IMG/VR virus record: IMGVR_UViG_3300032309_000509
Span: 1 to 25,843 of that record
Strand: one strand, 5' to 3'
Source of the DNA: a virus
Length of the DNA stretch: 25,843 nucleotides
Position numbers and translations under genes: made by a program. Under the pieces are notes generated by a model that was not told the origin of the DNA, searched no databases, and was given only the letters and a program-made list of their open reading frames with translations. The first letter of the stretch is position 1. Each line of letters opens with the position of its first letter. This document shows positions 110 to 25,843 of this stretch, one piece after another.

Positions 110-125
110 TACAACTTAATATACG

Positions 126-161
126 AGAGGCTCAATCCTTCGGGGTTGGGCCTTTCTGTTT
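126..161 (+). terminator. Rho-independent-type terminator after the tail tube gene
   Basis: AGGCTCAATCC (128-138) pairs with GGGTTGGGCCT (143-153) through an 11-bp stem with two G-T wobbles, closed by a TTCG tetraloop (139-142). The stem can extend outward by A126-T155 and a G127-T154 wobble. A T-rich tail (TTCTGTTT) follows. UUCG-capped GC-rich stems with a T tract are classical intrinsic terminators. The site lies between the tail tube gene and the chaperones, so it probably ends or strongly reduces the tube transcript. The tail is interrupted by C and G, so termination may be partial. Confidence 0.8.
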
Positions 162-169
162 GGTATACT
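161..169 (+). promoter_or_regulatory. Extended -10 promoter, probably leaderless
   Basis: TGG-TATACT fits the extended -10 pattern TGN-TATAAT with one mismatch. Six bases separate its last T (169) from the ATG at 176, so a standard +1, seven bases after that T, would be the A of the start codon. No ribosome binding site precedes this ATG, because the terminator hairpin occupies the space. Leaderless messages are common in actinobacteria and their phages. No good -35 box is visible, which extended -10 promoters can do without. The same layout recurs at 20907-20915. Confidence 0.6.
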
Positions 170-175
170 TATATA

Positions 176-880
176 ATGCCTACAGAAATATACAAAACCT
201 CAACCATAGAACTCTTTGATGGCACAGAAATTTATATTACTCCATTAAAGGTAAAATATTTAAAATTATTCTTAGATGAATTTGAAAATGTAAAAACATC
301 AAAAAATGATGAAGAGGCAATGTACTATCTTTCTAAGTGTGCAACAATTACAATGAGGCAGTACTACCCAAGTATAAAGACTCAAGAGCAATTAGAAGAC
401 AATATCGATATGCCAACAATATATAAGTTGTTGGATTTTTCAGCAGGCATAAAGATAAATGAAAAATCTGAAGAGCCAGTAAAGTCTCAAGCAGCAGAAA
501 GTGGATCTACTTGGGATGACTTAGATTTAGCAGAGATAGAAGCAGAGGTGTTTTTGCTTGGGATATGGAAAGATTATGATGAACTAGAATCATCTATGTC
601 AATGCCAGAAATAATGGCAACTCTCAAAGTAAAAAGAGAACTTGACTATTCTCAAAAGAAGTTTCTTGCTGCAATGCAAGGTGTTGATTTAGACAAAGCA
701 AGCAACAAGGGAAATGCATGGGAAGAGATGAAAGCCAGGGTATTTAGTGGTGGTCAAGCAGCAGACTCTAAAGATATTGTTGCTCTTCAGGGATACAATG
801 CACAAAAAGCAGGGTTTGGAATTGGTATGGGTTTAACCTATGAAAAATTAGACGAATCTGCACCGTCCAGCGTGGTATAA
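176..880 (+). CDS. Tail assembly chaperone, long form (GT-like)
   Basis: This 234-residue protein probably helps load the tape measure protein and tail tube subunits during tail assembly, as lambda gpG/gpGT do. Residues 1-100 are homologous to the next gene: DGTEI is at residues 15-19 in both, PLK at 23-25 in both, and a CA pair and a PT-hydrophobic-Y motif are nearly in register. Residues about 115-234 form a separate C-terminal domain (acidic WDDLDLAEIEAE, then FLLGIWKDYDEL, later ALQGYNAQKAGFGIG) of the kind found on the T part of actinophage chaperones. I chose ATG 176 rather than the upstream TTG at 146: the TTG lies inside the terminator hairpin, and ATG 176 puts DGTEI at the same residue number as in the paralogue. 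Here the long form is one uninterrupted gene that needs no frameshift. Confidence 0.8.
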   Translation: MPTEIYKTSTIELFDGTEIYITPLKVKYLKLFLDEFENVKTSKNDEEAMYYLSKCATITMRQYYPSIKTQEQLEDNIDMPTIYKLLDFSAGIKINEKSEEPVKSQAAESGSTWDDLDLAEIEAEVFLLGIWKDYDELESSMSMPEIMATLKVKRELDYSQKKFLAAMQGVDLDKASNKGNAWEEMKARVFSGGQAADSKDIVALQGYNAQKAGFGIGMGLTYEKLDESAPSSVV

Positions 881-881
881 T
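873..881 (+). promoter_or_regulatory. Extended -10 promoter overlapping the stop codon
   Basis: TGG-TATAAT is a perfect extended -10 element, and the upstream gene's stop TAA (878-880) lies inside it. The expected start of transcription is near 888, giving a leader of about 22 bases with a strong Shine-Dalgarno AAGGAGG (897-903) six bases before ATG 910. The ten-base word GTGGTATAAT at 872-881 is identical at 20906-20915. Its role would be to raise expression of the short chaperone above the long one. No convincing -35 box is seen. Confidence 0.5.
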
Positions 882-909
882 TAATTGTTAACCTACAAGG
901 AGGAAAACT

Positions 910-1236
910 ATGGCTGATAAGCCTTTAAACAAGAAAACTGTAACATTAATTGATGGAACAGAAATCTCAGTAAGACCACTTAAGTTATCACTACTTAGAC
1001 CATTTATGTCTAAGTTTGCATTGCTTTCTTCTGTATCTGAAGATAATGATAAGTCAATGGATATCCTTATTGAGTGTGCACAGATTGCAATGAAGCAATT
1101 CAAGCCAGAGTTGGCAGAAGACAAGGCAGCACTAGAAGAACTTCTAGATCTTCCTACAGTTTACGAAATTATTGATGCAGCATCGGGTGTTCAAAACAAC
1201 GAAGCAAGCGCAGTACTAACTTCGTTGACTAAATAA
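910..1236 (+). CDS. Tail assembly chaperone, short form (G-like)
   Basis: This 108-residue protein matches the N-terminal domain of the preceding gene almost without gaps (DGTEI 15-19, PLK 23-25, CA 56-57, PTVY 82-85) and lacks the T-like extension. By analogy with lambda gpG it would coat the tape measure protein during assembly and be the more abundant partner. A near-perfect AAGGAGG six bases before the ATG, plus a promoter-like element across the previous stop codon, fit higher expression. The gap to the tape measure gene is 27 bases. I see no slippery heptamer leading into a T-like frame at its end, which supports gene duplication as the route to short and long forms. Confidence 0.75.
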   Translation: MADKPLNKKTVTLIDGTEISVRPLKLSLLRPFMSKFALLSSVSEDNDKSMDILIECAQIAMKQFKPELAEDKAALEELLDLPTVYEIIDAASGVQNNEASAVLTSLTK

Positions 1237-1263: not shown

Positions 1264-4200
1264 TTGGCAGATGTAAATTCTAATATAAATATTAATTTTG
1301 ATACAACTGCCGCTCTCGCACAACTTCGTTCTTTACAGGCAGGCCTCAGCAGGTTTCATCAAACACTTGCTGAGGGCAACCTGGCTGCAGCAAATGCCCA
1401 AAAGGGTTTAAATGCACAACTTATACAGTCTGTTGGTGCTACAGGAAAATTCTCTGCAAGCCAAGTAAAAGTTGCAGGAAGTACTTTAGCCTTTACTTCA
1501 GCATTAGAAAAAAATAAACTATCACTACGTGAGTATTATAGATATACAATGGCAGCAGCAACTGCCAACACTCGCATTCTTGGCAAAGCCTTTGAGCAAG
1601 AAAGAGAGATCATTAACCGTGCTCGTAGAGATAGAGTAAAAGCACTTCAAGCACAATATGTTCAAATGAATAAATCCAATGCTGGGTTTATGGATGCAAT
1701 TAGAATTATGCCAAAAAGCCTTGAAATGGCTAGTGGAAAATTTACAGAACTTGGAGCAAGAATTCAGTATGCTGCTCAAAGACAGCAGTTCCTCAATCAA
1801 CTACTAAAGCAAGGTTCTACACAACTTTTAAACTTTGGTAAAAACACACAGTGGGCTGGTCGCCAGTTAATGGTTGGTCTCACAATGCCTCTTGCTTTAT
1901 TTGGTGCTGCAGCAGCAAAGGCATTTAGAGAACTAGACGCTGAGATTATAAAGTTCCGTCGTGTATATGGAGATGCATTTACAAATGATGCAGAAGTTAA
2001 TGCAGCAGTAGAAAATGTTAGAACATTGGCAAGCGAGTACACCAAGTATGGTGTTGCCGTAACTAAGACAATGGAGATGGCTGGAACTGCAGCAGCAGCA
2101 GGTTTTGCAGGCAGCGCATTAACGGCACAAGTTGAAACAGCAACAAAGTTAGCAGTGCTTGGACAGATAGAACAGCAGCAAGCACTTGAAACAACAATGT
2201 CTCTACAAAATGCTTTTGGTTTATCTAGCGAAGAACTTGCCAAAAAGATTGACTTTCTTAACGCAGTAGAAAACCAAACTGTTCTGTCTATCGAAGATTT
2301 AACTATAGCAATTCCAAAAGCAGCACCAGTTATAAAGCAACTTGGTGGATCTGTAGAAGATCTTGCATTCTTCCTTACAGCAATGAAGGAAGGTGGAATT
2401 AACGCATCAGAAGGTGCTAACGCACTTAAGTCTGGTCTTGCTTCTATGATTAATCCTTCTAAGAAGGCAGCAGGATTCCTTGCAGATCTTGGTATCAACA
2501 TAAAGGGTATTGTTAATGCCAATGCTGGAAACCTAAAAAATACTGTTATTGGTTTTGCACAAGCACTCGATACTCTTGACCCACTTAACCGTGCAAGAGC
2601 AATTGAGCAAATGTTTGGTAAGTTCCAGTTTGCTCGTCTATCAACACTTTTTCAAAACGTAACAAAGGATGGATCACAGGCATCAAGAGCACTTGGATTA
2701 GCAGGTGCCTCAGTTGAAGAACTAGCAATCTTATCTGAGCGAGAAATGAAAAAGATTGAAGACTCAGTAGGCGTTAAGTTTCAGGCAGCAATAGAACAAT
2801 TTAAACAAGATATTATGCCTTTAGGAAAAATATTTCTTGAAGCATTAACTCCAATAGTTAAATTCTTTGGTGGGCTTTTTGAAAAATTTAATGGGCTAAG
2901 CGATCAAACTAAAAAGGTTGTTGCTATTATTGTTGGAGCAGTCGCAGGCATCGGCCCAATTCTACTTATGACTTTTGGTTTGCTTGCTAACGGTGTTGCA
3001 AATGTTATTAAATTCTTTGCAATGCTTCGTGGCGGAATTGCTAAATTAAATGGTAAAACAAATATATTGGGTGCAGGATTTAATTATATGACCCAAGAGC
3101 AGATAGAAAATGCTGCCTCATCTCAACAACTTCATCAAACACACACAAGATTAATTGAAGTTTTTAATGTTGAAAAAGCATCTGTAAATGCTCTTGCTTC
3201 ATCATACAATTCATTAAGCACACAGATGAGAACTATGGCAACACAAAACCCAGCATTGTTTGCAGGCGGAGTTCGTGGGGCCAAGAAAGCAGCAAGTGGA
3301 TTACCACCAGTTAAAAAGTATAGAGAGGGAGTTTTAAGCGTACCAGGTCCGAAGGGTGCAGGAGATGTTGTTCCAGCAATGCTTTCTCCAGGAGAAGCCG
3401 TTATCCCTACAGAAACAACTAATAAGTATAGAGGTTTAATTTCTGCAATGTTCCAAGACAAGGTTCCAGGATTTATGGCTGGAAGACTTCCTGGAGGACC
3501 AGGAAAAGGAATACCATTATCTGATGGTCCAGCAGCAGTTAGAAAAGCACAACAAGCAAAGTATAGAAGAAGAGATGATGCACGTCAGGGATATAATGAG
3601 CCACACCCAGAAGCACCAGTAGGTCCAGTATTTATTGGCATGCCAAAAACTGCAAAAGAAGCATCACAGTCTAGACAAATCCTAGACAAGATATCTGAGC
3701 AGGTAAGTCTTGGAAGATTTGGCACCATGCCACCTTCAAACTTTGGAACAAAACTTCAAGGCTTTAAAGGATACAGTTTCCCTGAACGTGGAATTGGCGG
3801 GGTATACAGAAAGCCTAACGGAAAGATAGTAGTAGTAAAGCCAACAATAGATGAAAAGACTGCATTAGCAGAAGTACGTATGACTCAGATTGAGGCTGCT
3901 AGAGGAATGATTGTTCCAAAGCAAGTAATAAGAACAATGGTAGATCCGACAGATATTACAGGGCAAAGAAAGTTTATTGTTATTGAGTCACCATATGATC
4001 CAAGAATTGCAGCAATGGATGGCAAGTTTACACAAGGTGATATGGTTAAGCAATTGGTTGGGTCGACTTTAAGAGGAGACAAGGATTTACAGCAGGCAAA
4101 CGTATCTGGAAGAATAGTAGCGGACGTTGGAAATGCTGGAGCATTTGATAGAGCATCTGGTTTTAGAGATTACGCTAATGTAATGCCAAGTATGGAAGAG

Positions 4201-7200
4201 CAAGCAATGATTAATCTTCTTGGTATTAAGGGCGGAGCAAAGAAATTCTTTGCACAGGAAACAGCATCAATTGCAGGCAAGATGACTCCACAGCAGTACG
4301 AAAATGCAATTAAGCAAGAAATCAATCAATCTATTCCTAGAGTAGAAAAACTTATTAAGTCTTGGGATCTTGAGCCAGATGAGCAAATTGTTTATGACAA
4401 TCTTCTTAAAAGACTTAAGGCTGGAGCAAAAGTAGATTGGGCTAAGTTCCAACCAATTCATGCTAGTGCTGCTAATGGTGTTATAAAAGCAGAAACAGGA
4501 ATTGGTTCGGGTGCACGACCTCAAGAAATATTAGAACAACTCAGCAAGTATGAAATTGCATCTGTAGAAGCCAGCCAATCAAAGAGTGCTGATTTAAGAA
4601 GAAGCGCAGAAGCCGCATTTAGAACAACACTAGAATCACTAGACTCAGTAGACCCAGTTAGATCAAAAATAGTAAAGGCAGCCTGGCAAGGTGGAGTAGT
4701 ACCTCTTCCTCCTTCTGGCAAAGATAAGAGTTTTTCTCCAAGACAGACAGCATTTATTAACGAACTAAGCAGAATGACTCCAATCGATGTTGATGGGGTA
4801 ACAAAGTATCTTCATCCAGACGACTTAGAATCATTTAAGGCAGACCCTGACGGTAGAGCAAAATATGCAAGAACAAAAGAACAGGTAATCAATAACGTTC
4901 TTTATAGAATGGGTGCTATTCCAAATGATAAGGGCATTTTTGTTGATAAGGGAGGGTTTGAAGGAAGTAGGTTTGCTAGTGTATCGGCACTTAAAACAGA
5001 TCTAAGATCATCCAATAAGGGCGCAGGTGGTGGTCAAGGAGTACTTTCAAGTATTGTTAGACCTGAAGCAATGAAACTTTTAGATGAATATAGAGCAAGA
5101 ATGGGAGATCCTTTAAAGTCTAAAGCAGCAATAGATATGAGAGCACTAGGACTTACCGATGCTCAAATTATTCAAAAATTAAAACCAGAGTTATCTCATA
5201 TAAGTGCAACTGGAAATGCTGGTATTGGTGGAAGAGATGCTGTAAAATTTAAGACTGGAACAGCACAGTATGATACTTTTGCTCTCAATAGATATATCGG
5301 AACTGGTTCTTCAAGATTTCAAGATATTCTAAAGTGGAATAATGGTGGCAACTTAAATCCTCTTAAGTTAAACCCAGCACTTTTAAATGAATATCAAAGA
5401 GCAGCAGACTTTATGGCAACTGGACTACATCCAGAAACACCAGAACAAAGATCACTTGTAGCAAGAGCAGCAGAACTAGAATCATTGGCAGCAGATCATA
5501 AAGCAAATGGTGGAAAGATTCCTAAAGTAAAACTGCCTAGAAATGCTGGAGTAAACGCTAGGGCATTACTTGCTATACTTAGAGATCCAGCAATACAGCC
5601 ATCAAGAATAATTAACTTGGCAGCAACCTCAGCAGACGAAGTATTCGTTGGTGCAAAAAAGGGAGAAAGCGTTGCAAATGTTCCAGCAAGAACTGTAAAG
5701 AAAATAGGAAATAAAAACAGTGTTCCTATTCCAGAAAACGTTGTTCCTGTAGGAAAAAATGGTAAGCGTACTTCAGATAATGTTCTTGTAAGAAAGAATC
5801 AGTCAGAAACAATAACAACTCCATCCCAGACAAGACAACTTGTACGTGTACGTGGTTTTGACAAGGGAGATGGAAGTGTAGTAAGAAATACAGGCGGAAT
5901 AACTAACCCTACAGTAAAACAAGGAGAACTTGCTTTACAGATGAGAGCCAAAGGTTACAGTCAGTCTGAGATTGACAGAGCACTTAGAAGGTTTGCAGAA
6001 AACGAATTAAAGATTAAAGAGTCTCAGGTTAACGCTGCTGCAAGAGCAGCAAGAGAAGAAAAAGGAAGACAACAAGAACAAGCAAGAAATCAAAAAGAAC
6101 AATCAAGAATTCAAAAAGAGCAAACTGCTGCTGCAAGAACAAGATTTTTAGAAAATGAAAGAAGAGCACAACTTAATAGACAGATGGCTCTTAATTTTGA
6201 TGCTGCTGAAGCAGAGGATAAGAGAAGAACATTAAATAACCAAAGACAAACTCAAAAGGAAAATGCTAAACAATTAAGAAATCTACGTCAAGAAAAGATT
6301 GGTAGATTTTCAGGTGGCGCAGCAATGGCACTTGGTACTGCTGGCACTGGACTACTAATGTCTGGTAATGAAACTGGCGGAATGGCAATGATGGGTGCAT
6401 CTGCTGTAGCGGGAATGGCCCCAATGCTTGCAAACCCAGTTGGTGCTGTTGCTGTAGGACTTCTTACACTTGCAGGCACAGTATATGCATTTAATGCTGC
6501 TTTGAAAAAAGCCAGGGAAGAAGGTATTGCATTAAGTAGTGCAATGTCTATGACTAAGACAAAACTAATTGCTTTGTCAGAAATAACTAAAACTGTTTCA
6601 GCAAGTGAGGAAGCAGATAAAACCAGAGCGGATAGACTTGTTGGAGCAACAGAAAAGCAACGCAAAGTTGGACAGACAATACTTGAGTCAGACTTTGGTA
6701 AATCATTACTTGCAGATATAGAAACACAAGTAAAAGCAGGGCTATCAAGTTCTGAAATTGGTAAGAATCTAGGATCTCAACTATCTAGCGCAATGCTTAG
6801 TGGAGTTATAGACTCAAACCAAGCAAGAAGTTTGGCAATGGCTATTGGAAATGAGTTACAGGATTATCCTCTATCTGCAAATATTTCTGGAGAAATAATT
6901 CGAATCACTGGGCCTAATGGAGAAAATATTAAAAAGGACCCAATAAAGGTTGCTTTAGATATTGATAAGAATACATTTAAAACTGCTAAAAAAATGTTTG
7001 ACTATGCAGCAAAACAAAATTTTGACTTATTAGGAGCCTATAATCCACTAAATTTTGGTGGCCGCTTTGCAGGTACAGGTGGAGGAGAAACTTACGCAGG
7101 CAAGAGCGGAACCATGGCAAATGCACAGTCAGCCTTAAGAGGAGAAAAGGGACTTCGCCATCAAGTAATGGCAAATATAAGTCCTCAAATTTATCAAGAC

Positions 7201-10200
7201 TTCTTTGATCCAAAAAAGAGTGGTTTAGATAAAGCATTATCTATTATTACAATGGGTGCAACATCAAACTTCTTCCAACTAAGAGATGCAGCAGCACAAT
7301 CAACTAAGATTCAGACTGCAGGTGCACAGTTAATGATTCAGGAGTTGGCAAACAATCAACAACTAATAGACTCATTAAATAAGCAGTATGACATTAAATT
7401 AAAGACTGCTAAAACTGAAAAAGAAATTGCGGGGATTGAAAAAGATCGAAAGAAAGCGCTAGATGATTTAAACAAACAAAACGAAGACCAACTTAATACT
7501 ATCGTAGCCTCTAAAGACTTAATTGGAGATACTAATTTTAATGCTGCTATCAAAGCGTCAGCCGATGCACTATATACAAAAGGTCCAATGAAAGCACTTA
7601 AAGATGCAGCCATTACTCAATTAGAGGCATTAGAAAATAGTTCATTTAAAACAGAGATGCAGTTAGAGTTTGCAAGTGGACTCGTTGATCCAATGACCTT
7701 GATTGAAATGCTAGGAAATGAAGAATTCCAAAAAGAATATAATATCTTAGTTGACACCACTTTTAGTGGTAATGCTGCAGAAGCAAATGTTGTTTCAAGG
7801 TTGCTATCAAAGGCTGGACTAAAAACAGAATCAAAAACTATTATTATTAAACTGTTAAATAATGATAAGGATGATTACACTAATGGAGAATTAACAGAGG
7901 CAGTTCAAATATTGTCTGAGATACAAGACACATATGGAATTGTCTTAGATGTTAATGTTAACAGTGAAGACAAAGTTACAAGAATTGCAGATATGATCAA
8001 GTTCTTGGGTAACAAAAAATTTGTAACTAAAGCAGAATTAAAGGCTAAAGCAATAGAAGATCCTAGGTATCAGCACATTGTTGATAACTGGGAGCAACTA
8101 GTTGGAGACGGAAAAACAATTTCAAGAACAATGTTGCTTAACATTGAAACACTTGTATCTGATGCAAATGTTCTTCAAGCATACCTTCAGGCAAGAGGAG
8201 CATCAGACTCCGATGCTGCTGCATATGCTGGAGTTCAGTCAGGTCAATATCCAGAAATTGTTCTTACAGGTAAAAAATCTGTTGGACAAATGATGGAGGC
8301 TGGAGCAAGATATTTTGCTGAAGACCCTAAGAGATATGCAAAAATTTTAAATGAGATGCTTGGCATAGAAGATGGAGATGGTCTAACAAAGACAGATCCA
8401 TTTATAGAGATACTTGCAAAATTAAAGAATGTTAGAAATGCTGCAATAAATGCAGCAGGAGGAATTGAAGAATTAAGAAAGGCGCTTGCAAAAACTGGTT
8501 CTAAGGCTGTGGGAGATAAGTTCTTAGGAATAGATCAACAACTGGTTGCCCAAGGACGTAACAAGCAGTTTATTGATTGGGCCATGGCTCTTGACCCAGC
8601 AGAACAAGCAAAGTATATTACTACAGCAGGTCCTAAACTTAAATCTGGAAAAAATAAAGGAAAAATAAAAGACCCATATAACAAGGGCAAGTTCTTACCA
8701 GAGACAACCAAGCCTGGAGATGTGGTTTTATCTCAAGATGGAAAACTATTAAACGAGTATTTTAATGCAAAGGTAATCGGAGATTTTAACGCTGCTCAGG
8801 GTAGGTCTCTTTCATTACTGAGAGAGCAAGAGCAAGCAAGAATTAAACTAGTCGCTGCTGGATATGATTCTGCAACAATAGAAGGTCTATTAACAGATGA
8901 ATATACTACACAGTTAATTGCTTCAGGTAAAATAACAGAAAATCAATTAAAGCAAAATGTTGAAATTACTAAAGAACTTGAGAATAGAAAAAAAATTAAT
9001 AGCATGCTTTCCAGAGGTACATCAGAACTTCAAAGACAAGCAGACATGTCAAGAGCAGCAGATGCTGCAAAATTCTTACGTAGTCAAGGTGTTTCAGAAG
9101 ATGGTGTAAGGGCTGCTATTGGAGATGCAGGTTCACTGTCAGAAGCAATCGCTGCAATGGATCAATATAATTCTTCTGCTGGTATGGCTGCAGACACACT
9201 TAAAAGAATTGTTGATGGACTTAATGCTATAAAGGAAAACTCAAAGATAGATATTGTTTTAAATTTTATAAAAGCAGATATTGCAGGGCAGGTTGAGCAA
9301 GGCGCAGCAGCAGCAAGAAAGATAATGGACTCAAAGAGAACTGTTTATAATAACCTAACTGCTGATAAACTTACTTCAGCGGTATCAAATTATAGAGATT
9401 CAAGTAAGGCACCTCAAGAAGTTGGTAAAATTGCAACTGCAAATGTTGCAGCAAGATACGCAAAAGCAGGAGTTAAGATACCAACCGTTGCAGCAGGTGC
9501 AACAATAAACAGTATTGCAAAGGAAAGAGCAGCACTTGGCAAGACAATAAATGTTGCATCATCACAACTTCAGGGTCTTGCAAATCAAAGAAATACAATT
9601 CAAAACCAAATTGCAAACTCTGAAAGCAGTTTGAGGGCAGCCCTTGACAGTGTGAATAGTTCATTTGACAAGACGATTAAGTCAATTCAAGATGGAATTA
9701 AGAAATATGAAAACCAAATAAAGTCAATAGAAAAAAACATAAAGGCAAAAGAAGATGAGATAAAGAAGAGGTTTACAGATAAGATAGAGGCATTTAATAA
9801 AGAAAATCAAATGCTAAGCAATGACCTTGCCATAATGGATAAGGCTGCAGAAGATATTAATGAGAAATATGATAAGCAAGTAGAAGCCTTGCAAGAAGTA
9901 AACAAGTTAAACCAAGAAATTATTGACGCACAAGGACAACAGTTAGATCTTGCTGATGCTCTTTCTCAAGGTGATATAGCAGCAGCAGCAAGAGTTGCAA
10001 ATGAGATGTCAGCATCTTACGCAAATAATCAAGCAGATACAATAATGCAGGGTGTTGAACTTGCTAGAACCAATGATCTTTCAGCGCTAACTGGTGCAGA
10101 AAGCGGAATGACTAGAGAGGCTATTTCAGAAAGACAGTTTGTAATAAGTCAAGAAATTTATAAACTAGAAACAGACCCTGCTAGATTAGAAATAGAAAAA

Positions 10201-13200
10201 CAAATAGAAGCGCTAAGTCAAAGCATTTTAGATATACAAGAAAAAATTGTTTTAGAACAAGAAAAAATTGAGGCACAAGAAGCATTAAGAGCAGCAGCAC
10301 TACAAGCAGCAGAAGATGCACACAATGCTGCAATTGCAGCATTAGTTGCACAAGAAAAACTTCTTATAGAGCAAGAAAAGCAATTGCAGGCAAACTTAGA
10401 CAAACTAGTAGAACAAGACGATATCTTGAAGTCTCAAGAAGAATATCTTACAGCAATAGCAGAAGAGGCAGTTGCTATTGACGATACTACAGGAATGACT
10501 CTTGAAAAATGGGATGAGACTTTAGATAAAGTAACAGCAGTTAAAGATTTAGCAGAGGCATATGCCGTTGCAACACAGGCAGCAGAAGCAGCGGTTACCG
10601 CTGGTGCAAAGTCTTGGAATGATATTTTAAATGCTATTAATGATATTCCTGATTCAGTTAAAACAGATCAGATAATTAATGAGATTAGAAACATAACTGA
10701 GAACGTTACAAGATATGTTAAGAGCGTAGATGACGGAAGCGCAGCAGCAGCAGCATCATCTGCAGCCGCTGCAACAGCAGCAGCAGAAGCAAAAGCCAAG
10801 GCAATTGCTGCAGCACTAAGAAAGTTAACATCTGGAGAAACATTGACAGCAGAAGAAAAGGCTCTGCTAGGAATGACTGGTCCATCAGATGGAGACTCCG
10901 CAAATAAAGCAGTTAAGGATGCAGCAGAAGCAAAGGCTAAAGCAATTGCAGATGCTCTAAGAAAATTAAACAGTGGTCAACTATTGACAGGAGAAGAAAG
11001 ATCATTGCTTGGTATGTCACAAGATGCAGAGACTACTGATCCGACCAACTCAAATCACAAAGGATCTTTTGAGGCAGGTTGGGCATTAAATCCATGGCTT
11101 CATGGAATGGGAGAAGCAAGCGCAAGACCTATTTTAGAGAGTATGGGATATTGGGCAGATGGCGGAGTTGTATATAGAAAGGGCGGAAGTACTGACCCAG
11201 AGTTTAAGCCAAAGGGAACAGACACAGTTCCTGCAATGCTTACACCTGGAGAATTTGTAGTTAAAAAGTCTGCGGTAAAGAAATATGGACCAAAATTCTT
11301 TAAAACACTTAATGACAAAAAGTATCCAAAAAAGACTTCAGCAGTAACTCCAACAGAAGTACTTGACATAATCAGAAACCTTGGTTCTTCAGTACCAGTT
11401 AAACCAAGTTCTGCTTATGATTCTAACAACCAGCCTACTGGAAGCCCAACTGGAAGATACTGGGGAGAGTTAGAAAGACTATACGAAGGATCTCCAATCG
11501 GGTTTGATGGCAAAGGAAAGCCAATATTCAATACTACAGGTAAAGATCCATGGGGCGGAACTGAAATTCCAGGACTTCCATTTAGTGGCAAGGTACCAAA
11601 CTTCTCAGACTACTTCCATCAGTTAGCAGAGCAACCAAAAGATTACAGCAGTCCAGGAATGGGTATAGACAAACCTGTAGACCGCTATGCAGGCTCTGGC
11701 GCATCTATGGGTGGTATTGGTAACGGAGTATATGGTGTAACTGGCCTACAGATGCTTTCAGAAGGTGGCATTGCTGGAAACAAAAAGGGTAATTGGTTTA
11801 GTAGGTTTAACCCAGTAAATGCATTCTCTTCAATGCTAAGCGGTATGTTTAATGTTGGTGCATCAAAGACTTTTAATACAAGCACTAATATTAAATCTAA
11901 AATAACTCAGCAAGAAAAAGACTACATGGCTTTGCAAACTGGTCAAATGTTGTCTGGCTATACCTCAGCATTTAATTTAAAAAACAATACAAGCCCAGAA
12001 ATATTTGGAAGCAAAAAACTTGGAACTGCAGCAGACGTACTTGGAGTATTGCCAGGAATTAGTCTTGGAGTTCGTGGATTAAGCAAGGCTAGTTCTGGTG
12101 CTAAATCATTAGTAGCAAAAAAACCAAGTTTAGTAGAAGAATACGTAGCGCCTCCTGGACAGTACCAGTTTATGTCATCGTCATCAGGATCAAAAGATCT
12201 ATGGGATATAGATACTCCATGGGACCCAATTCCACCTACACCTACTGAGAAGTTTCTTTCTTCTGTTGCCAGCAAAGGAAGAATAGGATTAGAAGTATCT
12301 GATTTACTTCATAAAACAATCTGGGCAGCAAAAGGTTTTGGGAAAGGGTTTTCTAGAACAGCAGGATCGGCATGGAATAGTGCAGACCCAACTGAGCGCC
12401 TTACTTCTACACTTTCAAGAACGTTAGGATCACTTACTGCTGCACCATTTACAAAGCCTCTTGCCAAACTAGGAAAAGAATTTAATCCTAAAGCACTCAG
12501 ACAAACTGATCCTTCTGAGATGTCCTATATTCAAAAATCTATGTTTGATGAAACAAAAGAATATAGAAAAGCATCATATGCCAACATGTTTAAAAACATT
12601 ACTTCAGATGTTATGACTCCAGTTAAGAAAAAATTAACTGACACAAAAGATTCAATATTAGAGCCACTTGCAAAAATGTTTGCAAACACAAACTTTGGAA
12701 GAAATATGAGCATGGCAAGACAAGCGGGAGATGATATAGCATTAAAAAATCACTACATCACTCAAGCAATAACAGATTCAATTCCAGGTGGTCCAGGAGC
12801 ATTAATTCAAATAGCAAGAGGTGTTCACAGAGCCAGAGCAGAGATTACAGATCTTCCATCTCCTTTAGAAAGATATATATTATCACAAACTTCGCCAAAC
12901 AATATTCCAATGAATGCATTTGGTCCAGGCCTGTATAGTGCAACCGACTCGTTAATGTCTGAACGTGTTTTTAGACATTTTGGAGAATTTCAATACGGCG
13001 TACATTTAACGCCAAAAGCAATACTTAAGATATTAATGGGTAAGGGATTTATAGATCCACCAAAAATGGAAAAATTTATACAAGACTATATTAAAAAAAC
13101 TGGTACACATCCACAAGGTATGAGTAGCGTAAATGCTAATATAAATGCTCCAATTATGCAAGAACTTCTTAAGGCTGGATATCTTGGATATAGGCATGGA

Positions 13201-13818
13201 GATGCCTTTACTAATTGGGGCATGGGAAATATTCCTGGAATGTCAATGAAGATTAAAACAATGCCAGAAACTGTACCTAGATATATTGATGGAGAAATGC
13301 AGATCATATCAACAGAAAATTTTGCTAAAATTACTAAGCCAAATTTAAATCAAACTTCAGAGATCGGAAACAGTAAGTCCGCTATTGCAACAATTATTGG
13401 TGGCATAGTTGGATCTGGAAGCCTTGCTGGTCTTTCTTTATACAATGCAGTAAATGCTAACGCAGATGCTTCTGGCTTAGAAACGCTTGACTTTAACAGG
13501 TCTAACGATAGACGTGGTGGCATAGGTGGAAGATTTGACCTGCAAGCATTTGCATCAGGTGGACTTGCAAGAGGTACTGACACTGTACCAGCAATGCTAA
13601 CTCCAGGAGAATTTGTAATGAGCAAGTACGCTGTTGATGCACATGGTGCAGAAACTATGAAGGCAATTAATAATGGATCTTCTGTTGGTGACTCAGTGTA
13701 TAATTATAGTATCAATGTAAATGTACAGTCTGATTCAAACCCAGACGAAATTGCAAGAGCAGTAATGACTCAAATAAAGAGCATTGATTCACAAAAGATT
13801 AGAGGAGTTAGAGTATAA
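1264..13818 (+). CDS. Giant tail tape measure protein (4184 aa)
   Basis: The tape measure protein sets tail length and is expelled with DNA at infection. At roughly 0.15 nm per residue, 4184 residues would span about 0.6 micrometre if all were tape, which is near the upper end of the family. Residues 215-480 match the TP901-type tape measure core (LDAEI, MEMAGTAAAAGF, LTAMKEGGINASEGANALKS). Hydrophobic segments lie near 552-585, 1685-1743 and 4040-4059. Coiled coils lie near 1580-1678 and 2780-3080. VPAML(T/S)PGE motifs occur at 700-715, 3318-3332 and 4104-4118. A kinase-like region (790-1030) and an ADP-ribosyltransferase-like region (3850-4026) are described separately; 1060-1560 is unrecognised. 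The start is TTG 1264: a TGA lies in frame two codons upstream, and GAGG (1249-1252) provides a ribosome site. It overlaps the next gene by one base. Confidence 0.92.
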   Translation: MADVNSNININFDTTAALAQLRSLQAGLSRFHQTLAEGNLAAANAQKGLNAQLIQSVGATGKFSASQVKVAGSTLAFTSALEKNKLSLREYYRYTMAAATANTRILGKAFEQEREIINRARRDRVKALQAQYVQMNKSNAGFMDAIRIMPKSLEMASGKFTELGARIQYAAQRQQFLNQLLKQGSTQLLNFGKNTQWAGRQLMVGLTMPLALFGAAAAKAFRELDAEIIKFRRVYGDAFTNDAEVNAAVENVRTLASEYTKYGVAVTKTMEMAGTAAAAGFAGSALTAQVETATKLAVLGQIEQQQALETTMSLQNAFGLSSEELAKKIDFLNAVENQTVLSIEDLTIAIPKAAPVIKQLGGSVEDLAFFLTAMKEGGINASEGANALKSGLASMINPSKKAAGFLADLGINIKGIVNANAGNLKNTVIGFAQALDTLDPLNRARAIEQMFGKFQFARLSTLFQNVTKDGSQASRALGLAGASVEELAILSEREMKKIEDSVGVKFQAAIEQFKQDIMPLGKIFLEALTPIVKFFGGLFEKFNGLSDQTKKVVAIIVGAVAGIGPILLMTFGLLANGVANVIKFFAMLRGGIAKLNGKTNILGAGFNYMTQEQIENAASSQQLHQTHTRLIEVFNVEKASVNALASSYNSLSTQMRTMATQNPALFAGGVRGAKKAASGLPPVKKYREGVLSVPGPKGAGDVVPAMLSPGEAVIPTETTNKYRGLISAMFQDKVPGFMAGRLPGGPGKGIPLSDGPAAVRKAQQAKYRRRDDARQGYNEPHPEAPVGPVFIGMPKTAKEASQSRQILDKISEQVSLGRFGTMPPSNFGTKLQGFKGYSFPERGIGGVYRKPNGKIVVVKPTIDEKTALAEVRMTQIEAARGMIVPKQVIRTMVDPTDITGQRKFIVIESPYDPRIAAMDGKFTQGDMVKQLVGSTLRGDKDLQQANVSGRIVADVGNAGAFDRASGFRDYANVMPSMEEQAMINLLGIKGGAKKFFAQETASIAGKMTPQQYENAIKQEINQSIPRVEKLIKSWDLEPDEQIVYDNLLKRLKAGAKVDWAKFQPIHASAANGVIKAETGIGSGARPQEILEQLSKYEIASVEASQSKSADLRRSAEAAFRTTLESLDSVDPVRSKIVKAAWQGGVVPLPPSGKDKSFSPRQTAFINELSRMTPIDVDGVTKYLHPDDLESFKADPDGRAKYARTKEQVINNVLYRMGAIPNDKGIFVDKGGFEGSRFASVSALKTDLRSSNKGAGGGQGVLSSIVRPEAMKLLDEYRARMGDPLKSKAAIDMRALGLTDAQIIQKLKPELSHISATGNAGIGGRDAVKFKTGTAQYDTFALNRYIGTGSSRFQDILKWNNGGNLNPLKLNPALLNEYQRAADFMATGLHPETPEQRSLVARAAELESLAADHKANGGKIPKVKLPRNAGVNARALLAILRDPAIQPSRIINLAATSADEVFVGAKKGESVANVPARTVKKIGNKNSVPIPENVVPVGKNGKRTSDNVLVRKNQSETITTPSQTRQLVRVRGFDKGDGSVVRNTGGITNPTVKQGELALQMRAKGYSQSEIDRALRRFAENELKIKESQVNAAARAAREEKGRQQEQARNQKEQSRIQKEQTAAARTRFLENERRAQLNRQMALNFDAAEAEDKRRTLNNQRQTQKENAKQLRNLRQEKIGRFSGGAAMALGTAGTGLLMSGNETGGMAMMGASAVAGMAPMLANPVGAVAVGLLTLAGTVYAFNAALKKAREEGIALSSAMSMTKTKLIALSEITKTVSASEEADKTRADRLVGATEKQRKVGQTILESDFGKSLLADIETQVKAGLSSSEIGKNLGSQLSSAMLSGVIDSNQARSLAMAIGNELQDYPLSANISGEIIRITGPNGENIKKDPIKVALDIDKNTFKTAKKMFDYAAKQNFDLLGAYNPLNFGGRFAGTGGGETYAGKSGTMANAQSALRGEKGLRHQVMANISPQIYQDFFDPKKSGLDKALSIITMGATSNFFQLRDAAAQSTKIQTAGAQLMIQELANNQQLIDSLNKQYDIKLKTAKTEKEIAGIEKDRKKALDDLNKQNEDQLNTIVASKDLIGDTNFNAAIKASADALYTKGPMKALKDAAITQLEALENSSFKTEMQLEFASGLVDPMTLIEMLGNEEFQKEYNILVDTTFSGNAAEANVVSRLLSKAGLKTESKTIIIKLLNNDKDDYTNGELTEAVQILSEIQDTYGIVLDVNVNSEDKVTRIADMIKFLGNKKFVTKAELKAKAIEDPRYQHIVDNWEQLVGDGKTISRTMLLNIETLVSDANVLQAYLQARGASDSDAAAYAGVQSGQYPEIVLTGKKSVGQMMEAGARYFAEDPKRYAKILNEMLGIEDGDGLTKTDPFIEILAKLKNVRNAAINAAGGIEELRKALAKTGSKAVGDKFLGIDQQLVAQGRNKQFIDWAMALDPAEQAKYITTAGPKLKSGKNKGKIKDPYNKGKFLPETTKPGDVVLSQDGKLLNEYFNAKVIGDFNAAQGRSLSLLREQEQARIKLVAAGYDSATIEGLLTDEYTTQLIASGKITENQLKQNVEITKELENRKKINSMLSRGTSELQRQADMSRAADAAKFLRSQGVSEDGVRAAIGDAGSLSEAIAAMDQYNSSAGMAADTLKRIVDGLNAIKENSKIDIVLNFIKADIAGQVEQGAAAARKIMDSKRTVYNNLTADKLTSAVSNYRDSSKAPQEVGKIATANVAARYAKAGVKIPTVAAGATINSIAKERAALGKTINVASSQLQGLANQRNTIQNQIANSESSLRAALDSVNSSFDKTIKSIQDGIKKYENQIKSIEKNIKAKEDEIKKRFTDKIEAFNKENQMLSNDLAIMDKAAEDINEKYDKQVEALQEVNKLNQEIIDAQGQQLDLADALSQGDIAAAARVANEMSASYANNQADTIMQGVELARTNDLSALTGAESGMTREAISERQFVISQEIYKLETDPARLEIEKQIEALSQSILDIQEKIVLEQEKIEAQEALRAAALQAAEDAHNAAIAALVAQEKLLIEQEKQLQANLDKLVEQDDILKSQEEYLTAIAEEAVAIDDTTGMTLEKWDETLDKVTAVKDLAEAYAVATQAAEAAVTAGAKSWNDILNAINDIPDSVKTDQIINEIRNITENVTRYVKSVDDGSAAAAASSAAAATAAAEAKAKAIAAALRKLTSGETLTAEEKALLGMTGPSDGDSANKAVKDAAEAKAKAIADALRKLNSGQLLTGEERSLLGMSQDAETTDPTNSNHKGSFEAGWALNPWLHGMGEASARPILESMGYWADGGVVYRKGGSTDPEFKPKGTDTVPAMLTPGEFVVKKSAVKKYGPKFFKTLNDKKYPKKTSAVTPTEVLDIIRNLGSSVPVKPSSAYDSNNQPTGSPTGRYWGELERLYEGSPIGFDGKGKPIFNTTGKDPWGGTEIPGLPFSGKVPNFSDYFHQLAEQPKDYSSPGMGIDKPVDRYAGSGASMGGIGNGVYGVTGLQMLSEGGIAGNKKGNWFSRFNPVNAFSSMLSGMFNVGASKTFNTSTNIKSKITQQEKDYMALQTGQMLSGYTSAFNLKNNTSPEIFGSKKLGTAADVLGVLPGISLGVRGLSKASSGAKSLVAKKPSLVEEYVAPPGQYQFMSSSSGSKDLWDIDTPWDPIPPTPTEKFLSSVASKGRIGLEVSDLLHKTIWAAKGFGKGFSRTAGSAWNSADPTERLTSTLSRTLGSLTAAPFTKPLAKLGKEFNPKALRQTDPSEMSYIQKSMFDETKEYRKASYANMFKNITSDVMTPVKKKLTDTKDSILEPLAKMFANTNFGRNMSMARQAGDDIALKNHYITQAITDSIPGGPGALIQIARGVHRARAEITDLPSPLERYILSQTSPNNIPMNAFGPGLYSATDSLMSERVFRHFGEFQYGVHLTPKAILKILMGKGFIDPPKMEKFIQDYIKKTGTHPQGMSSVNANINAPIMQELLKAGYLGYRHGDAFTNWGMGNIPGMSMKIKTMPETVPRYIDGEMQIISTENFAKITKPNLNQTSEIGNSKSAIATIIGGIVGSGSLAGLSLYNAVNANADASGLETLDFNRSNDRRGGIGGRFDLQAFASGGLARGTDTVPAMLTPGEFVMSKYAVDAHGAETMKAINNGSSVGDSVYNYSINVNVQSDSNPDEIARAVMTQIKSIDSQKIRGVRV
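3361..3408 (+). repeat. VPAMLSPGE motif, copy 1 in the tape measure
   Basis: Residues 700-715 read GDVVPAMLSPGEAVIP and follow a PGPKGAG linker. It is the most diverged of three copies in this protein. The pattern (T/D)xVPAML(T/S)PGE(F/A)V recurs in many phage tape measure proteins, mostly near the C-terminus; its function is not settled. This copy sits immediately before the kinase-like region, so the three copies appear to border distinct segments. Confidence 0.75.
3631..4353 (+). other. Protein-kinase-like region inside the tape measure (residues about 790-1030)
   Basis: Landmarks in order: a glycine-rich turn GIGGVY (843-848), then IVVVKP with K859 where the kinase beta-3 lysine would be. 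E870 falls in a following helix (ALAEVRM), in the alpha-C glutamate position. A hinge-like strand KFIVIESPY follows (from about 903). Then DLQQAN (D941 to N946) resembles the catalytic-loop pattern DLKxxN, and VADVGNAG (D954, G956) resembles DFG. The order and general spacing are those of a kinase fold, but the 13-residue gap from D941 to D954 is shorter than usual and the HRD histidine is absent, so it may be a pseudokinase or a chance likeness. The region lies just after the first VPAML motif and separates the core from the coiled coils. Confidence 0.4.
10780..11016 (+). repeat. Tandem 31-residue repeat, two copies, period 48 residues
   Basis: Residues 3173-3203 and 3221-3251 of the tape measure protein are near copies. 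Each starts AEAKAKAIA, continues ALRKL, then SG, then LT, EE and a final LLGM. The 17-residue spacer between them differs. Third codon positions differ in many places, so the duplication is old or kept by selection at protein level. Just upstream is an alanine tract coded mostly by GCA (from 10741). The unit looks like a helix followed by a short LTxEExxLLG helix; a flexible spacer or a small binding module is possible. Confidence 0.85.
11215..11259 (+). repeat. GTDTVPAMLTPGEFV motif, copy 2 in the tape measure
   Basis: Residues 3318-3332 carry the full consensus GTDTVPAMLTPGEFV, followed by KKSAVKKYGPKFF. A glycine-rich lead-in (DGGVVYRKGG) precedes it. The same 15 residues occur at 4104-4118 with different synonymous codons. 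The copy marks the boundary between the coiled-coil and repeat zone and the C-terminal region of the protein. Confidence 0.9.
12811..13341 (+). other. ADP-ribosyltransferase-like region near the tape measure C-terminus (residues about 3850-4026)
   Basis: The region contains ARGVH (R3852 with G and H), then FGPGLYSATDS (3886-3896), then a stretch running to ELLKAGYLGYRHGDAFTNW (3967-3985). This resembles ADP-ribosyltransferase-like domains of phage and polyvalent proteins, where a basic-plus-glycine motif is followed by a GxGxYxA turn and a late GYDG-type strand. The three motifs are in the expected order. I cannot see an unambiguous catalytic glutamate, so activity is uncertain. It lies between the second and third VPAML motifs. 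The fold assignment is inference from motif order only; an unrelated phage structural domain is possible. Confidence 0.35.
13573..13617 (+). repeat. GTDTVPAMLTPGEFV motif, copy 3 in the tape measure
   Basis: Residues 4104-4118 are identical in protein sequence to copy 2 but use other codons (for instance ACT for ACA, CCA for CCT). The motif is preceded by FASGGLAR and followed by MSKYAVDAHG, about 65 residues before the end of the protein. A C-terminal position is the common one for this motif in tape measure proteins. Confidence 0.9.
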
Positions 13819-20432: not shown

Positions 20433-20914
20433 TGGCTGACCAGGGAATCAAAAAGGCTATAATTAAAAAAGAAGATTTTCCACCATTGAACGGAGAATCA
20501 CAAAACTATTTAGTTAGATATCGTGTGGTATCAGAAGACAAAAATAGAACATCTCATTGGTCTCAATACTACGAGGTTAATGTTGTTCCTGAGATAGATA
20601 GAGAAAGAATTGTGGATGGAGCACCATCGCCAGAGCCCTGGATTTCACACTCTTTAGTATTAAGTGAAAATAAACAAATTATTAATGTTGTTTGGACTCC
20701 TCCTGCAAACTTAAAATCTGATTTTGATTTATATGTTAAATGGGGATCAGATGCTTTTAAATATGTTGCATCCATCCAGACATCTTCATATACTATTCAG
20801 ACTTTATCGGGATATACCACAGTTGAGTTTGCTCTTCAAGTTCCAACATTTCCAAAAAAGAGATTTACCAAGGCTACGCTTTTTGAGTCTGACGCATTGA
20901 GCCTAGTGGTATAA
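20432..20914 (+). CDS. Minor tail protein, fibronectin-III-like
   Basis: This 160-residue protein has strand patterns of fibronectin type III domains: YLVRYRVVSEDKNRTSHWS near the N-terminus and VVWTPP followed by FDLYVKWG and a YTIQTLSG turn later. Such domains are common in tail-tip and fibre proteins of phages that infect Gram-positive hosts, where they act as spacers or weak carbohydrate binders. It begins at a TAATG overlap with the fibre-like gene and ends V-V-stop, coded GTGGTATAA, which doubles as part of a promoter-like sequence for the next gene. It has no signal peptide or membrane segment. Confidence 0.65.
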   Translation: MADQGIKKAIIKKEDFPPLNGESQNYLVRYRVVSEDKNRTSHWSQYYEVNVVPEIDRERIVDGAPSPEPWISHSLVLSENKQIINVVWTPPANLKSDFDLYVKWGSDAFKYVASIQTSSYTIQTLSGYTTVEFALQVPTFPKKRFTKATLFESDALSLVV

Positions 20915-20915
20915 T
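20907..20915 (+). promoter_or_regulatory. Extended -10 promoter, probably leaderless
   Basis: TGG-TATAAT is a perfect extended -10 element. Its last T (20915) is six bases before ATG 20922, so the expected +1 is the start codon itself, the same arrangement as at 161-169. No Shine-Dalgarno sequence lies before ATG 20922. The element overlaps the stop codon of the upstream gene, and the ten-base word GTGGTATAAT is identical to 872-881. A good -35 box at normal spacing is not visible. Confidence 0.6.
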
Positions 20916-20921
20916 AGTATT

Positions 20922-21365
20922 ATGGCACAAATTCCTCTACCTGAGCGTGGTCAACCACTAGATGTAGCATACATTTCTAGGCTGGCTCAAGAAATAAATA
21001 ATTTATCAAGAGATGCTTCAACAGCAAGATATGACTATATAACTATTGATACAAAAGATTCTGGTCCACAAAATAAAAAAATGTCTGAGGTTAGAGTTTT
21101 AGGAGTTATTAAAAAGTTACCAGCAGGTAAAACAGTTACTGCTGCAGAAGAAATTGGATTTACTCATTCATTTAATGGTGAGTTTAAGTTTGCACCAATT
21201 GTAACTGCTACAGCAATAAATGTAGGAGGAGGTTCTGCTGGAGGAAATGTTACTGTAATATTAAAAGACCCAACAACTTCTGGAATTGAAGGAACTGTAA
21301 GATTTAATGAATCTGGAACTGCTACAGTAAATGTTAACCTTATTATTATTGGCGTACCTAACTAA
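20922..21365 (+). CDS. Last tail-tip / minor tail protein
   Basis: This 147-residue protein starts QIPLPERGQPLDVAYISRLAQEIN, an amphipathic helical anchor seen at the start of small tail-tip proteins. A beta-rich C-terminal half follows (EEIGFTHSFNGEFKFAPIVTATAINVGGG, GNVTVILKD, GTATVNVNLIIIGVPN), similar in style to the receptor-facing tips that end tail modules. It is the last structural gene before the regulatory and replication genes and seems to have its own leaderless promoter rather than being coupled to its neighbour. It overlaps the next start by one base (TAATG). The exact family is unknown to me. Confidence 0.65.
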   Translation: MAQIPLPERGQPLDVAYISRLAQEINNLSRDASTARYDYITIDTKDSGPQNKKMSEVRVLGVIKKLPAGKTVTAAEEIGFTHSFNGEFKFAPIVTATAINVGGGSAGGNVTVILKDPTTSGIEGTVRFNESGTATVNVNLIIIGVPN

Positions 21366-25038: not shown

Positions 25039-25692
25039 ATGGCAATACTAAGAGGAATAAAAGAAATGGGTCCAGTGCTAGATGGCCCAAAGAGTGGCGA
25101 CGGTCCAAAGGTTAAGTGGCTAAAACTTGCAGATGGACAGTCAGTAAAGATTAGATTCTTAGAAGAACTTGATGAAGATTCAGCAAACTATAACGCAGAG
25201 CGTGGATTAGCAATTGTTGTATCAGAACACACAAACCCAAAGGACTACAAGCGCAAGGCTGTAGATACAATGGACACAGAAGGTCGTGACTGGGCAGAAG
25301 AAATGCACCGCAAGGATCCAAAGGCTGGCTGGAGAGCACGTCTTCGTTTCTATTGCAACGTTCTAGTTGACGACGGCATTGAAGCACCATATGTTGCAAT
25401 CTGGTCAATGGGTATCAGTAAGCAATCATCATTCAATACAATTCGTGAGTATGCACTTGAAACAGGAAGCATCTCAAACGTACAGTGGAAGTTAAAGCGT
25501 AATGGACAGGGAACTGAAACCAATTACACACTAATTCCATCTGCACCAGATAAGGAGCCATTCAACTGGGGAGACATTAAGCCTTACCCACTAGAGTCTG
25601 CACTACGCAAGGTTCCTTACGCAGAACAAGAAGCGTTCTATTTGGGCTTTGATGGCCCATCTGCCACTTCAGCAACTAACGCTGATTGGTAA
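25039..25692 (+). CDS. Single-stranded DNA-binding protein, T4 gp32-like
   Basis: This 217-residue protein likely coats single-stranded DNA at the fork. Typical stretches are WLKLADGQSVKIRFL, VVSEHTNPKDYKRKA, MHRKDPKAGWRARLRFYCNV and SGIS-like WSMGISKQSSF, as in the SSB proteins of actinophages and related to T4 gp32. It contains a single cysteine, so it cannot carry the three-cysteine zinc finger of T4 gp32. The last residues, ending NADW, may act as a partner-binding tail. An AAGGAG ribosome site precedes the ATG, and the polymerase gene starts one base after its stop. Confidence 0.7.
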   Translation: MAILRGIKEMGPVLDGPKSGDGPKVKWLKLADGQSVKIRFLEELDEDSANYNAERGLAIVVSEHTNPKDYKRKAVDTMDTEGRDWAEEMHRKDPKAGWRARLRFYCNVLVDDGIEAPYVAIWSMGISKQSSFNTIREYALETGSISNVQWKLKRNGQGTETNYTLIPSAPDKEPFNWGDIKPYPLESALRKVPYAEQEAFYLGFDGPSATSATNADW

Positions 25693-25693
25693 T

Positions 25694-25843
25694 ATGAACT
25701 ACGTCGGCTTACATGTCCATACCCATTTTAGTTTATTTGATGGGATTGCTACTCCAGAAGAATACGTTGACCGTGCAGTTGAGTTAGGGATGCCAGCAAT
25801 TGCCATCACTGACCACGGTACTTTATCTGGGCATAGGGAACTG
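25694..25843 (+). CDS. dnaE: DNA polymerase III alpha subunit (C-family), N-terminal part only
   Basis: The first 50 codons are in the window and run off its end. They start a PHP domain: LHVHTHFSLFDG with the HxH pair H7 and H9, and AIAITDHGTLSG with D40 and H41. This is the signature of the bacterial replicative polymerase alpha subunit (DnaE, a C-family polymerase), whose PHP domain often proofreads or stabilises the enzyme when those residues are intact, as they are here. The start is one base after the SSB stop. Together with helicase, primase and SSB it completes the replication block. Later domains lie outside the window. Confidence 0.85.
   Translation, partial: MNYVGLHVHTHFSLFDGIATPEEYVDRAVELGMPAIAITDHGTLSGHREL

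Follow-up and report, generated by a model that had tools for sequence, protein, structure and literature searches.

Tandem tail assembly chaperone genes in a siphophage clade and the putative replacement of the G/GT frameshift by nested promoters

The chaperone locus

The window (the whole stretch of DNA analysed here, 25,843 nt of the viral record IMGVR_UViG_3300032309_000509) has a GC content of 37%, and searches of these 25.8 kb for tRNAs and Rfam families gave no matches. Near its left end, a pair of putative tail assembly chaperone genes sits between a major-tail-like gene, upstream, and the tape measure gene, downstream, which is the position characteristic of G and GT. The features of this region are as follows.

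End at about 109: major-tail-protein-like gene, conserved in relatives, directly upstream of the terminator and the long gene
125..160, + strand: predicted intrinsic terminator (14-pair stem, 4-base loop, T tail), which would close the upstream transcript
161..169, + strand: P1, putative extended -10 element TGGTATACT, directly behind the terminator; the predicted transcription start is the A of the ATG at 176
176..880, + strand: long tail assembly chaperone, GT type, 234 aa; G/T homology to Streptomyces phages; matches phrog_10504 and phrog_10474
873..881, + strand: P2, putative extended -10 element TGGTATAAT, lying across the long gene's stop codon
897..903, + strand: Shine–Dalgarno sequence AAGGAGG of the short gene, identified from sequence
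910..1236, + strand: short tail assembly chaperone, G type, a separate paralogue, 108 aa; 36% identity to the N-terminal domain of the long protein
1264..13818, + strand: tape measure protein, 4184 aa, an ORF whose product is the expected client of both chaperones

A TTG at position 146 also opens the frame of the long gene, but it lies inside the terminator and is missing in several relatives, and was rejected as the true start. An additional frameshift that would lead out of the short gene into a different ORF was also rejected; the tape measure start lies 27 nt further on in the same frame, with a stop codon between. The tape measure protein itself is very large, and internal segments (at approximately residues 850–1000 and near the C-terminus) resemble, by eye, inserted non-tape domains. 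At the other end of the window, genes for a DnaB-like helicase and a primase precede an ORF at 25692–25843, within which the record ends and which starts, by eye, like a PHP-domain DNA polymerase III alpha subunit.

Homology of the two proteins

An earlier note on this DNA described an uninterrupted long form followed by a separate short form, the N-terminal domain of the first aligning with the whole of the second almost without gaps. This description holds in each of its parts. The long gene is one open frame from 176 to 880, and the short ORF, from 910 to 1236, comes after it. In BLASTP the two proteins align over 91 residues with 36% identity, 70% positives and two single gaps (E 9e-21), and the alignment scores 171 against a mean of 31 and a maximum of 58 in 2000 shuffles (z 25.7), so that their homology is clear. 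The motifs DGTEI and PLK do fall, as the note had it, at the same residue numbers in both proteins (15–19 and 23–25).

In profile searches, both N-terminal domains match phrog_10504 (G; 1.1e-18 and 1.8e-15), and the C-terminal domain of the long protein matches phrog_10474 (T; 7.8e-15). Within the long gene, the G domain extends over about 176–469 and is followed by a linker and by the T domain at about 512–877. The products are two proteins with a common N-terminal domain, the longer one with an extra T domain, as is typical of G and GT. As read from these matches, the long gene is G plus T in a single frame and the short gene is G alone. Both genes are under purifying selection, with dN/dS values of 0.04–0.10 for the long gene and 0.11–0.19 for the short one.

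Comparison of the G family with Pfam, NCBIfam and PDB sequences gave no credible match, and G and T match only unnamed PHROG families. The assignment to the tail assembly chaperones therefore rests on synteny, on the frameshift found in relatives and on the annotation of those relatives. Amongst annotated phages, the chaperone genes of Streptomyces phages are the only good relatives; a T-domain match in a Rhodococcus phage is weak.

Relatives with and without a frameshift

In nearly all long-tailed phages, one gene yields both a long and a short tail chaperone through ribosomal frameshifting. This is amongst the most widely conserved recoding events, and is retained where sequence similarity is lost.

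Distant relatives of the locus were gathered from viral contigs and phage records via the T domain, with the best 80 matches taken per scan. Amongst the matches listed, a fused GT followed by a separate G is present at 345 loci (187 distinct sequences), and a G followed by a T in the -1 frame at 60 (56 distinct, including two that have an additional partial domain hit). Complete loci of mixed type, either fused without a second G or frameshifted with one, were absent amongst these matches. The apparent exceptions, L043, L048 and L381 (no second G) and L091 (no first G), are cut by contig ends, according to the contig coordinates. In one genome, a single base change would be enough to produce a false fusion of G and T through an indel in sequencing or assembly, but the fusion is common to 187 distinct loci, which refutes this explanation and reduces its probability practically to nil.

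The frameshift-type loci belong to Streptomyces phages and to dozens of environmental relatives, and encode the same G and T domains in two overlapping ORFs; the joined GT product is annotated in Yaboi and TunaTartare. An in-frame CCCAAAN or GGGAAAN is present in the G/T overlap of 38 of the 48 distinct frameshifters, and most of those that lack both have CCCGGAA at the same place. In L003, L004, L168 and other Boydwoodruffvirinae-type loci, the reading is C CCG GAA, which is non-canonical for an XXXYYYZ heptamer, where the others have CCCAAAN. When the frames of five sister phages are joined at the heptamer, the modelled products are 230–236 aa (GT) and 111–113 aa (G), compared with 234 and 108 aa in the window. 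The search for a frameshifted ancestor that the earlier note proposed has thus been answered by frameshifting relatives in both Streptomyces phages and environmental sequences, most of them with a canonical heptamer.

None of the fused long genes has kept a CCCAAAN. An in-frame XXXYYYZ is found in the linker of 19 of 147 distinct fused long genes, in scattered positions and nearly always as an A-run, and synonymous change in the linker (0.34–0.38) is slightly low against about 0.44, the value typical of the gene. These observations could be read as traces of cryptic frameshifting or other recoding in the long gene, by which a short product would still be made and to which the separate gene would be a supplement. 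We consider this very unlikely. The heptamers are not conserved, those of the ancestral type are gone, and the linker of the window's long gene has no in-frame heptamer; there is no marked dip in synonymous change at the junction, and its minimum within the long gene lies elsewhere, at codons 33–44, outside the linker. In programmed-frameshift chaperone loci, the G and T ORFs overlap and a slippery site links their frames. Since the long gene of the window is one open frame and has no ancestral or conserved heptamer, its locus is not classed amongst them. A slippery heptamer with a frameshift product was what the earlier note named as evidence against its reading; as regards the sequence part of this, no conserved heptamer is left in the fused gene. 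The note's other refuting condition was a lack of significant structural similarity between the two proteins, and at the level of sequence they are clearly homologous.

Signals upstream of the long gene

A terminator-like hairpin of varying sequence precedes the long gene in 167 of 183 relatives, and the median folding energy of this stretch is -23.8, compared with -10.2 after shuffling. The end of the P1 -10 element is exactly 6 nt from the long start codon in 145 of 183 distinct relatives, with no Shine–Dalgarno sequence; in the other 38 the spacing differs and is mostly 8–9 nt. The P1 hexamers are TATACT (102), TATAAT (39), TAGAAT (21) and others, and the start codon of the long gene is ATG or GTG only. 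Over 1.18 Mb, 139 copies of the pattern TGNTATAMT-N5-7-RTG lie at the long start; elsewhere there are 12 on the same strand and none on the opposite one.

With the usual geometry of sigma-70-type promoters, which may not be that of the host, the first transcribed base would be the first base of the start codon, giving a leaderless mRNA. A leaderless mRNA is accordingly the predicted form for the long gene, and both the spacing and the absent Shine–Dalgarno sequence fit it. The earlier note had assigned a promoter-like element to the short gene, which stands, but had missed the long gene's own P1 behind the terminator. Elsewhere in the window, at 20907–20922, a second TGGTATAAT lies exactly 6 nt before the ATG of the gene at 20922–21365, where a leaderless start is again predicted.

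In mycobacteria, mRNAs without a leader are commonly translated from ATG or GTG, as robustly as those with one, and either codon at the 5' end of the mRNA suffices (PMC4633059). A leaderless start alone does not, therefore, prove a low output of GT, and a weaker promoter and the nesting of the two units are better candidates for this than the leaderless start itself.

Signals upstream of the short gene

Across the fused clade, the short gene is preceded by a near-invariant TGNTATAAT and a strong Shine–Dalgarno sequence. All 187 distinct relatives have a perfect TGNTATAMT 23–42 nt upstream of the short start; its hexamer is TATAAT in 184 of the 187, whereas P1 departs from the consensus hexamer more often. 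The Shine–Dalgarno sequence matches the anti-Shine–Dalgarno complement over at least 5 bases in 172/187. P2 is also retained in relatives whose long gene ends earlier. Terminator-like hairpins are rare between the two genes (4/187) and do not occur after the short gene (0/187), and there is no TGNTATAMT, and hence no separate -10 element of this kind, between the short gene and the tape measure gene in 172 relatives (0/172).

In one relative, L156, an insertion of 1.2 kb (1738–2961) carrying two ORFs, with open frames of 155 and 211 codons, separates the long and short genes; the second ORF is, by eye, perhaps 2-oxoglutarate-dependent-oxygenase-like. Despite this insertion, the promoter and the Shine–Dalgarno sequence stay with the short gene. 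The ribosome site and promoter-like element that the earlier note gave to the short gene are those at 897–903 (AAGGAGG) and 873–881 (TGGTATAAT), and its proposal of control by promoters and ribosome sites is strongly supported as conserved sequence anatomy.

The G gene of the frameshifting relatives has a leader with a Shine–Dalgarno sequence, which suggests that only the fused gene has lost its leader. Between T and the tape measure gene, a TGNTATAMT is present in seven of eight sister loci (L271, L311, L332, L333, L342, L357, L366 and L336), with L311, L332, L333, L342 and L366 amongst those that have it, and in 0 of 46 other frameshifters. As the element is already present in the sister loci, P2 may predate the fusion.

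Evolutionary history

A tree built on the N-terminal part of the tape measure protein unites the fused phages in a single clade (84/80), with seven frameshifters as its sister group (96/93) and the other frameshifters outside. The T-domain tree also has the fused clade (96/93). A single change of state suffices on both trees, so the change was most likely from frameshift to fusion, and took place once; that is, the fused state most likely arose once inside a frameshifting background. The fusion and the second G would then be one evolutionary event, and their perfect association counts as a single data point.

The history of the two G domains is less clear. In the best G tree, the short gene clusters with the sister phages' single G (95/84), and the G domain of the long gene lies outside this group. 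The short gene thus looks like a conventional G, and the G of the fused copy appears either to have diverged more or to come from another source. Such a topology would suit the acquisition of a fused GT from another phage lineage, beside a resident G, in place of duplication at the locus. This is possible but doubtful: a tree in which both copies (G1 and G2) form one clade is not rejected (p-AU 0.154), the long G1 branch makes its placement unsure, and a quick tree puts the fused clade's T domain closest to that of the sister frameshifters. Duplication in place is likely. The earlier note's claim that gene duplication replaced the frameshift can be upheld, then, for the loss of the frameshift and for the paralogy of the two genes, with duplication in place as the likely route.

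The divergence of the copies bears on a further explanation, in which the short paralogue became a different chaperone, for another part of the tape measure protein or another client, with no role in setting a ratio. The two G domains are just 36% identical and selection maintains both, as subfunctionalisation of this type would predict. It is nevertheless an unlikely account, as the short protein clusters with the frameshifting sisters' one G, the two products have the lengths expected of G and GT, and, amongst the matches listed, no complete fused locus is without the short gene.

Proposed mechanism and its context

Comparison of the sequences establishes a fused GT, a second G gene and relatives in which a frameshift-type locus encodes the same two products. 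The tandem paralogues of the earlier note, an uninterrupted long form and then a separate short one, are confirmed, and its interpretation is supported in that the frameshifting relatives are of the right kind and the fused and separate genes mark a single derived clade. The pair probably encodes, and this with some confidence, GT (the long protein) and G (the short one) in a siphophage that has given up frameshifting, with nested promoters giving an excess of G.

In the proposed mechanism, the terminator would isolate the pair from upstream transcription. From the weak extended -10 element P1, an mRNA would begin at the long gene's start codon, for leaderless translation of GT, and the near-consensus P2, located where the long gene ends and followed by the strong Shine–Dalgarno sequence, would drive the short gene. 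Since the genes usually have no terminator between them, P1 transcripts should carry the short gene too. G would then be made from both transcripts and GT from one, so G should exceed GT without recoding, as tail assembly requires. By analogy with their families, G would coat the tape measure protein and the T domain of GT would recruit the major tail protein. On balance we favour the broader proposal that, in a widespread freshwater phage clade, the G/GT frameshift has been permanently replaced by nested units that set the ratio, a leaderless GT unit with a weak promoter and an internal G unit with a strong promoter and a strong Shine–Dalgarno sequence.

The host is likely to be an actinobacterium, as judged from the relatives, and the low GC content, together with published freshwater actinophages, suggests a freshwater habitat. 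A scan of genome contigs gave one match, in a contig binned as a cyanobacterium, which is probably a stray phage contig and does not name the host.

A search of the open-access literature gave no account of GT fusion alongside a separate or duplicated G, and no report of a conserved pair of leaderless and leadered promoters replacing the frameshift. A clade without the frameshift, its frameshifting sisters and the replacement signals together constitute a natural experiment on what selection maintains, the ratio of the products or the act of frameshifting, which ties the two together in a fixed way. There is also a consequence for annotation, in that two such chaperone genes look like an ordinary pair of hypothetical-protein genes.

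Comparison with known systems

The Streptomyces phages of the Stanwilliamsviridae (for example BillNye, TunaTartare, Coruscant and Yaboi) have the same G and T domains in the same place, between the genes for the major tail protein and the tape measure protein, and have a terminator and a TGNTATAAT-like promoter upstream of the chaperone locus. They differ in that a -1 frameshift, at CCCAAAT or CCCGGAA, links the G and T frames, in having one G only, and in having a leader with a Shine–Dalgarno sequence after the promoter. The sister phages L271, L311, L332, L333, L342, L357 and L366, which are the closest tape measure relatives amongst the matches listed, have a G of 101–113 aa; they differ in their frameshift at GGGAAAC, their single G and a TGNTATAMT element directly before the tape measure gene.

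In their architecture, phage lambda gpG and gpGT likewise comprise a short and a long chaperone with a common N-terminal domain. Their ratio is set by a -1 frameshift within one gene. It has to be a fixed one, with about 30 G per GT, G binding the tape measure protein and T the tube protein (PMC5009743). In Microbacterium cluster EA phages, the chaperones are encoded by two separate ORFs in which no frameshift is evident (PMC7302621). There is thus precedent for losing the frameshift, although that account describes no GT fusion accompanied by a duplicated G. The fusion itself has a parallel in a laboratory mutant of TP901-1, gpGfsT, in which G and T are also in one frame but no separate G is present. 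With G permanently fused to T, this mutant makes morphologically normal, non-infectious particles (PMC4493119), and a fusion such as that in the window is therefore expected to need a separate G.
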